A stretch of 64,000 nt of DNA, from assembly GCA_015075325.1 (NCBI GenBank), contig JABTUP010000007.1, positions 1 through 64,000 on the forward strand, written 5' to 3'. The position numbers and the translations under genes were made by a program. Each line of letters begins with the position of its first letter. Positions within the stretch are counted from its first letter, which is position 1. Of this stretch, positions 60,111-60,773 are shown in pieces. The DNA comes from Flavobacteriales bacterium. Its GTDB lineage: Bacteria; Bacteroidota; Bacteroidia; Flavobacteriales_E; Vicingaceae. Below the pieces are notes generated by a model. The model was not told where the DNA came from and did no database searches. It saw only the letters and a program-made list of their open reading frames with translations.

Positions 60111-60130
60111 ATAATTTTCTTTTTAAATTT

Positions 60131-60197
60131 CAACTCACCCCTGATTATCTTCGATAATCTTTCCCCTCTCTTGCAAGAGAGGGGGTAGGGGGAGAGT
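60131..60197. repeat. Structured palindromic repeat, copy A
   Basis: About 67 bp. It begins CAACTCACCCCT, holds a 7-bp stem GATTATC-TTC-GATAATC and a perfect palindrome CCCTCTCTTGCAAGAGAGGG, and ends GGTAGGGGGAGAGT. It lies between rlmD and the DUF559 gene. Copies B and C are at 60227 and 60674. Confidence 0.85.
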
Positions 60198-60226
60198 CAT
60201 TTTTTGTATTTTAATTCTAAATTTTT

Positions 60227-60294
60227 CAACTCACCGCTGATTATCTTCGATAATCTTTCCCCTTTCTTCTAAAGAGAGGGGTTAGGGGAGAGTT
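60227..60294. repeat. Structured palindromic repeat, copy B
   Basis: Same layout as copy A, with GATTATC-TTC-GATAATC identical and a weaker second stem (CCCCTTTCTTC / AAGAGAGGGG). Its last part overlaps and encodes the C-terminus of the DUF559 protein (ELSPNPSL and stop). Confidence 0.85.
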
Positions 60295-60652
60295 CATAAC
60301 TAATCTTTTCCAATACTTTTGAAATATTTTCTAGTTCCTCATTTTTTATTCTGATAACATTAAGCCCAAGCTGATTTAAAATAGAATCTCTTTCTTTATC
60401 GTATTCTTTTTGGAAATTATGAATTTTTCCATCAAGTTCGATTACTAATTTCTTTTCATGACAATAAAAATCAGCAATAAAAAAATGAGATGTTCCATTA
60501 AAATCACGACCATATACTATAGGAAATTGTCTGTTAAATTTAAAACCATTAAGTTTTCGATTTCTTAAGTTCATCCAAAGTATTTTCTCTGAGCTAGTCT
60601 GATTTTTTCTTAAATCTCTTGCAAGCTGTGTTATGTTTTTTCTTTCCTCCAT
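60269..60652 (-). CDS. DUF559 (Vsr-like) endonuclease-domain protein
   Basis: A 127-residue protein of the DUF559 family, related to the very-short-patch repair and PD-(D/E)XK nuclease fold. The core shows LRKNQTSSEKILWMNLRNRK, LNGFKFNRQFPIVYG, the acidic strand HFFIADFYCHEKKLVIELDG (D...ExK-like) and HNFQKEYDKERDSILNQLGL. The last eight residues are encoded by palindromic repeat B. The 60653-60673 gap holds nothing before repeat C. The gene is therefore bracketed by repeats on both sides, as expected for a repeat-associated module. Confidence 0.88.
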   Translation of the reverse strand: MEERKNITQLARDLRKNQTSSEKILWMNLRNRKLNGFKFNRQFPIVYGRDFNGTSHFFIADFYCHEKKLVIELDGKIHNFQKEYDKERDSILNQLGLNVIRIKNEELENISKVLEKISYELSPNPSL

Positions 60653-60673
60653 TTAGGATGAATTCTGCATTTT

Positions 60674-60739
60674 CAACTCACCCCTGAATAACTTCGTTAT
60701 TCTTTCCTCTCTCTTGCAAGAGAGGGGGCAGGGGGTAAG
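60674..60739. repeat. Structured palindromic repeat, copy C
   Basis: Same order of elements as copies A and B, but the first stem is GAATAAC-TTC-GTTATTC. Both arms changed together, so base pairing is preserved. The second palindrome CCTCTCTTGCAAGAGAGG is intact. It lies 22 bp upstream of the DUF559 start. Confidence 0.85.
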
Positions 60740-60773
60740 TAAATTTAATTTAGCAAATTTAGTTATCTTTTGT

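Follow-up and report, generated by a model that had tools for sequence, protein, structure and literature searches.

A DUF559 nuclease gene bracketed by hairpin repeats as a probable mobile unit with REP-like ends

Introduction

REPtrons, in which REP or REPIN sequences accompany a RAYT gene, are described as dispersed, tagged hairpins, with inverted pairs, that flank a single enzyme gene and occur in dozens of solo copies per genome (PMC3116915, PMC3733652). The RAYTs are HUH tyrosine transposases (PMC3733652). For palindromic repeats located in frame within genes, no enzyme has been identified in the years since they were recognized, and the CGTC class, as described in PMC3733652, apparently has no dedicated transposase. 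DUF559, a family of hitherto unknown function, has already been assigned in print to the EDxHD homing family (PMC9403480).

Here we analyzed a window of 64,000 nucleotides (contig C60 of a 3.3-Mb Flavobacteriales genome in 62 contigs), in which a DUF559 gene is bracketed by three hairpin repeats. A preliminary description of this window had read the repeats as REP-like elements and the nuclease as their possible mobilizing or maintenance enzyme, in analogy to RAYTs. This interpretation is partly supported by our results, which point to a kind of mobile element that has received little attention. Searches of the literature, covering few subscription journals, retrieved no paper on DUF559 together with repetitive extragenic palindromic sequences, on GIY-YIG with such sequences, or on in-frame insertion in leuS with a homing endonuclease.

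Results

The DUF559 gene (60269..60652, minus strand) encodes a 127-aa protein of the EDxHD/Vsr-like PD-(D/E)XK family that matches the PF04480 profile with an E-value of 4e-33 and 113.9 bits (curated cut-off 20.6); the profile scan gave no Y1_Tnp (PF01797) match for this gene. Repeats A (60131..60199) and B (60227..60295) lie on the 3′ side of the gene and repeat C (60674..60739) lies upstream, on its 5′ side, all three in direct orientation on the plus strand. Repeat B supplies the last eight codons of the gene, E-L-S-P-N-P-S-L. The neighbors are an rRNA methyltransferase-like gene and an ornithine aminotransferase-like gene, which we take to be rlmD and rocD. The three repeats form one family (B and C are 79% and 87% identical to A, respectively), and their core, TCAACTCACCNCTGA, occurs three times in the window with at most two mismatches, versus 0.20 occurrences expected, a count reached in none of 100 shuffles.

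In each repeat of about 69 nt, the tag CAACTCACCCC and its inverted counterpart GGGG-GAGTTG enclose a 7-bp hairpin followed by a 10-bp pyrimidine/purine hairpin, and the whole is predicted to fold as a three-way junction in single-stranded DNA. In repeat A, which is 69 nt long and ends in CAACTCACCCC..GGGG-GAGT, the two hairpins occupy 60143-60159 and 60163-60184. In single-stranded DNA folding, A, B and C were each better than all 200 shuffles (z -5.3, -4.3 and -3.8, respectively). The stem of the first hairpin changes from GATTATC/GATAATC in A and B to GAATAAC/GTTATTC in C, and across an alignment of 18 copies (16 from the same genome and two from a congener, with the composite L018 and the fragment L025 excluded), both sides are changed at six of the seven pairs. 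The second hairpin stem is nearly invariant in this alignment (97% paired), and the outer stem, helix 1, has 63.8% paired cells, a low value because, by our reading, rows with four or five Gs were misregistered by MAFFT. Thus, the three features first noted in this DNA, namely structured repeats bracketing the gene, stem pairing maintained by compensatory change and a gene end made of repeat B, are all borne out. The tags are C-rich, either CAACTCACCCC..GGGG-GAGTTG or AGCCCC..GGGGCT, and do not resemble GTAG.

The window copy is intergenic, and its site is filled in G000 and G003 and empty in G001. The congener G001, with a RocD fragment 91% identical, has the same neighbors and a clean empty site, with neither gene nor repeats, and the congener G003 has the DUF559 gene with one repeat per side. 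The A-B-gene-C unit (approximate extent, 60111..60760) was therefore gained or lost as one block, and repeat A, which has no counterpart in G003, is an extra copy in the window. In a third congener, G002, the site has a different neighbor. The genome harbors two further DUF559 genes, both with hairpin repeats whose tags differ from those in the window. One is located, judged by eye, between topoisomerase IV subunit genes, and the other interrupts recG in frame, with AGCCCCTCC..hairpin at one boundary and hairpin..GGAGGGGCT at the other.

Genome-wide, we counted about 20 distinct repeat copies (our reading of 34 BLAST rows; a covariance model gives 35 matches, some of which represent both strands of one place), and only A, B and C sit at the window DUF559 gene. 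The covariance model detects the repeat in 25 of 60 related genomes, and DUF559 was found in 29 of them: 19 genomes have both, 10 only DUF559, 6 only the repeat and 25 neither (Fisher p 5e-4). All nine genomes with at least 10 repeat copies contain DUF559; one of the six genomes with model matches and without DUF559 has 8 copies. With the own genus excluded, the association of DUF559 with at least three repeat copies has p 0.003, these p values being optimistic, given that the 60 genomes are kin. In G016, which has 60 matches, the model finds the repeat in tandem arrays with a spacing of about 155 nt on contigs C3, C7 and C12. A CRISPR-type repeat was considered for the window family and rejected because the copies are dispersed here, not arrayed.

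The association with hairpins extends far beyond this repeat family. DUF559 occurs in 222 of 395 Bacteroidota genomes, and a collection of 84,980 species genomes yielded at least 580 confirmed candidates. Among the best 80 of these, of which 78 were testable and two had insufficient flanks, the best upstream/downstream repeat score averaged 26.8, compared with 10.9 for controls in the same contigs, and 44 of the 78 loci outscored every control position in their contig. GIY-YIG genes (PF01541; loci L170-L199, from the 60 related genomes), included to serve as the negative control for repeats in the flanks, failed in this role: 24 of 29 scored at least 16 in this generic test, and DUF559 scored no higher than GIY-YIG (p 0.94). 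We therefore used a specific hairpin class, a perfect stem of at least 6 bp with a C/T arm, located within 250 nt, which separates the two families. This class, defined post hoc, after inspection of DUF559 flanks, and then applied unchanged to Y1_Tnp, flanks 115 of 135 DUF559 loci versus 24 of 1049 control windows, and is present on both sides at 79 of 135 loci versus none of the 1049 (four of the 139 loci, L067, L070, L055 and L222, were left out because their flanks were shorter than 120 nt). It occurs at 59 of 67 free-standing DUF559 genes (frames of at most 220 aa) and at 16 of 19 loci outside Bacteroidota, in several other phyla, and was found near 0 of 29 GIY-YIG and 2 of 28 Y1_Tnp genes. 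No two of the DUF559 loci surveyed share identical cores. The link between nuclease and repeat that had been suspected from the window is hence wider than could be seen there, and it holds in one direction: most solo copies of the window repeat lie far from any DUF559 gene, yet most DUF559 genes adjoin a hairpin.

The repeats at GIY-YIG genes belong to a different class, or else represent tRNA halves or tandem copies of the gene. Small stand-alone GIY-YIG genes, e.g. L174, L175, L176, L182 and L183, are bracketed by repeats of the CCTGAG..TCGAAGG / CCTTCGAG..CTCAGG type, and may form a second nuclease-repeat partnership; a motif for this class was dropped as too strict (2 of 29 loci). At L192, L195 and L197, the genes are flanked by apparent duplications of tRNA 3′ halves (GGTTCGAATCC-like), which gives the appearance of insertion at tRNA genes, and tandem GIY-YIG arrays were observed at G012:C9:906073-910392 (ten listed copies, about 457 nt apart) and G016:C2:183601-186426 (eight copies).

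Y1_Tnp is present in 43 of the 60 genomes and is associated with at least one repeat match (p 0.004), but does not track at least three (p 0.12) or at least 10 copies (p 0.42), whereas within Y1-positive genomes, the repeat copy number tracks DUF559 (p 0.009). Two Y1_Tnp domains lie in very long frames (G025:C102:520-858, 881 aa; G034:C225:8145-8480, 1118 aa) and are perhaps in-frame insertions of a tyrosine transposase. Relatives of the window protein were found in only 2 of 50,697 records of a phage collection; phages are therefore not an obvious vehicle.

Many of the loci reside within longer reading frames: 69 of 139 DUF559 loci, and 50 of 151 rows in the phylum listing, lie in open frames of more than 220 aa. 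Many of these are in-frame insertions that are bounded by hairpins, with a frame that stays open through the insert; in this clade, the ends are inverted, and a short stretch with a Y-x-T-A-like motif lies, by eye, between hairpin and nuclease. Hosts were sorted by sequence for 53 of the first 109 loci, the sites being our reading. The recurrent sites are in leuS before the editing domain (11 loci), ileS (9), a second leuS site (2), valS (1), the metH linker (7) and other metH sites (4), followed by recG (3), a RecB-like helicase, hsdR and hsdM (2 each); the remaining sorted loci are single cases, some perhaps chance fusions. In leuS, ileS, metH and recG, insertions recur at the same codon; such sites are loops, occupied at identical positions in genomes of different families. 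NCBIfam confirmed the host family for all 10 proteins scanned, although not all above the curated cut-off, and Pfam placed DUF559 between host domains in four of four. An intein or intron was considered and appears unlikely, as the frame is open throughout and no intein family was among the NCBIfam matches of the 10 interrupted proteins; terminators were rejected because the hairpins occur inside coding frames. The units L035, L107, L109 and L141 lie in the type I restriction genes hsdR/hsdM of different phyla, and three of the four cluster on the DUF559 tree, which suggests horizontal spread with restriction loci.

Occupied and empty alleles coexist at these sites. The recG insertion is present in 3 of 15 genes (the own genome and 14 relatives), with 12 empty, including those of two congeners, and each filled genome has a single recG match. 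In one genus, 5 of 30 metH loci are filled and 25 are empty (30 of the 54 loci found were read). A host linker of 10-12 aa is replaced in filled metH, which fits repair and also other routes; no target-site duplication was seen. The five filled loci are dispersed over the metH tree (4 changes, compared with a mean of 4.8 after shuffling), compatible with repeated gain or repeated loss.

Ends without the nuclease were also found. In the own genome, the recG-type end recurs at further places; at one of them, metH carries a nuclease-less pair of these ends at the exact site of full elements elsewhere, and others are in frames that we read by eye as those of a LysM protein, murD and murG. In the murD/murG-type frames, the ends lie near the N-termini, so that the start may be wrong; two such ends (L233 and L234, C12) are 3 kb apart.

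Turning to the enzyme, 14 columns are invariant in an alignment of 24 DUF559 sequences, including E15, Q35, D44, E55, D57 and H61. A profile search of solved structures matches 3HRL, a DUF559 protein, and 3R3P, the catalytic domain of I-Bth0305I (E 1.4e-7); the window protein used alone matches 3HRL. The predicted model of L042, a relative from alignment A1 and not the window protein itself (pLDDT 83.7), has 3HRL and 3R3P as its best matches (TM 0.71-0.77), and Vsr is a weaker match than I-Bth0305I (TM 0.49 vs 0.71). By sequence and by this model, DUF559 resembles the homing endonuclease I-Bth0305I. The family is under purifying selection (dN/dS 0.09-0.32, computable in 11 of 13 pairs).

In a DUF559 tree of 107 rows (few columns and many open forks; L055 and L058 left out), in-frame genes largely branch apart from free-standing ones (9 changes, compared with 36 after shuffling). 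Host sites also form clusters, although they do switch along the tree (27 changes, compared with 50.3 after shuffling); within one well-supported Flavobacterium trio, two distinct metH sites are occupied. Together with three further proteins, the window protein forms a group (SH-aLRT 96, the fork being drawn open) whose members share its insertion loop and have, as judged by eye, C-rich tags that are CTCACCCC-like. Similarity between tags is weakly correlated with similarity between proteins (Mantel r 0.19, 0 of 2000 permutations), and this link is absent for intergenic pairs below 50% identity (280 of 2000 permutations). A classification of tags by fixed hexamers was abandoned because it left 80 of 109 loci unclassified.

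Discussion

Taken together, block-wise presence and absence, insertion into unrelated genes, ends that persist without the gene, selection on the nuclease and its homing-type fold make it very likely that we are dealing with a mobile unit. Specifically, we consider it probable that the DUF559 gene and its flanking hairpin repeats constitute one selfish element, a single nuclease ORF between REP-like ends, each with a C-rich tag and a pyrimidine/purine hairpin and often inverted with respect to each other. All the data are compatible with the nuclease itself mobilizing or maintaining the unit. In this scenario, the enzyme would cut either an allele that lacks the unit or a site that bears a hairpin, and the unit would be copied in during repair, that is, homing by gene conversion; new sites would be founded by rarer ectopic repair, aided by the hairpin ends, and solo repeats would be non-autonomous or internally deleted short derivatives. 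Such an enzyme would most simply serve for homing into fixed sites, with the hairpins possibly guiding the rarer new insertions. Given that the whole repeats of the window unit are in direct orientation and the ends of the in-frame clade are inverted, the two might move in different ways.

The main rival is that the hairpins are merely tolerated linkers around a homing nuclease: DUF559 would spread only within fixed host sites, the hairpins would serve as foldable linkers (or RNA hairpins), in frame and free of stops, that ease tolerance, and the solo repeats would be dead, immobile remnants. The recurrence of identical codon positions in leuS, ileS, metH and recG, the homing-endonuclease fold and the nuclease-less copy at the metH site would all be expected under this explanation, which we nevertheless regard as unlikely, because about 20 copies of a 69-nt repeat with covarying stems are dispersed at places that are not known homing sites, and because free-standing DUF559 genes have the same hairpins. 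It is more doubtful still that another enzyme, such as a Y1/RAYT-type transposase, moves the repeats and that DUF559 rides as a passenger between two copies. Published terminal inverted repeats of tyrosine transposases share GGGGWSAS, which GGGGTGAG fits (PMC3733652), and the presence of Y1_Tnp is associated with that of the repeat; against this stand the hairpin class near only two of the Y1_Tnp genes, high copy numbers that are tracked by DUF559 and not by Y1_Tnp, and the purifying selection on DUF559.

Two further explanations fare worse. DUF559 could be a Vsr-like mismatch nuclease useful to the cell, with the hairpins as incidental terminators or REP sequences, and a role in short-patch repair has indeed been proposed for the Caulobacter DUF559 protein VsrA, which causes an SOS response in a methylase mutant (PMC12907096). 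Host repair, however, sits poorly with in-frame insertion in unrelated genes that have empty alleles, several DUF559 copies per genome, hairpins on both sides at 79 of 135 loci and the weaker fold match to Vsr, and we consider it very improbable. Least probable of all, in our estimate, is that the hairpins act in transcripts, in termination or stability, and were recruited beside DUF559 genes: stable, covarying folds are equally expected of RNA, but the hairpins are found inside frames that encode other proteins and on either side of the insertions, and their class is absent from 29 GIY-YIG flanks.

If the selfish unit proposed above is correct, it could be one member of a wider class spanning many phyla, a generalization that we put forward tentatively and hold to be somewhat less probable than the unit itself. 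In this class, a lone EDxHD-type nuclease would lie between REP-like ends and give rise to MITE-like, nuclease-less progeny, with an own tag for each nuclease lineage; one lineage would have acquired stop-free ends and a frame-through ORF, and persist as an unspliced extra domain in essential LeuS, IleS and MetH. Such elements would parallel REP/RAYT with a nuclease as the enzyme and might supply the mobilizer that in-frame palindromic repeats have so far lacked, and GIY-YIG with its own repeat class would be a second case. DUF559 is now tied to hairpins, in Bacteroidota and, by a sample of 19 loci, in several other phyla, as well as to elements inserted within essential genes. Should the nuclease move the hairpins, DUF559 gains a function, REP-like repeats gain a second, non-transposase engine, and the unspliced persistence of a mobile element in tRNA synthetases becomes testable. 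For annotation, this would mean that the synthetases and MetH proteins labeled “DUF559-fused” are genes with a selfish element aboard.

Compared with the known systems, the unit has the REP features of dispersed tagged hairpins, inverted tags and compensated structure, and shares with REPtrons the hairpins flanking a single enzyme gene and the many solo copies. The analogy to RAYTs drawn in the preliminary description therefore holds for the layout and not for the chemistry of the enzyme, which is a PD-(D/E)XK/EDxHD, homing-type hydrolase instead of an HUH tyrosine transposase; furthermore, the REPtron tag is GTAG whereas that of the unit is C-rich (CTCACCCC or AGCCCC), and, unlike REPtrons, the DUF559 unit is itself found repeatedly in frame within genes. 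Rickettsia palindromic elements (RPE) and intragenic CGTC REPs are likewise palindromes kept in frame in conserved genes (as described in PMC10969869 and PMC3733652), a trait of the recG- and metH-type relatives and not of the window copy, and differ from the unit, which carries a nuclease between its ends, in that no dedicated transposase is apparent for the CGTC repeats. VsrA of Caulobacter belongs to the same Pfam family as the window protein and acts on DNA in vivo, in connection with DNA damage, but it is presented as a repair enzyme, with no link to repeats in that description (PMC12907096). I-Bth0305I resembles DUF559 in sequence, in the fold of its catalytic domain and in insertion at fixed sites of conserved genes, and the presence or absence of the insert at the same site of host alleles, a homing-element trait, is seen here at recG (3 of 15) and metH (5 of 30). 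However, the DNA-binding regions of I-Bth0305I are long (PMC3943268), and the PDB names it a mobile intron protein, whereas the DUF559 unit, in which no intron or intein was recognized, combines a lone catalytic domain with hairpin ends.
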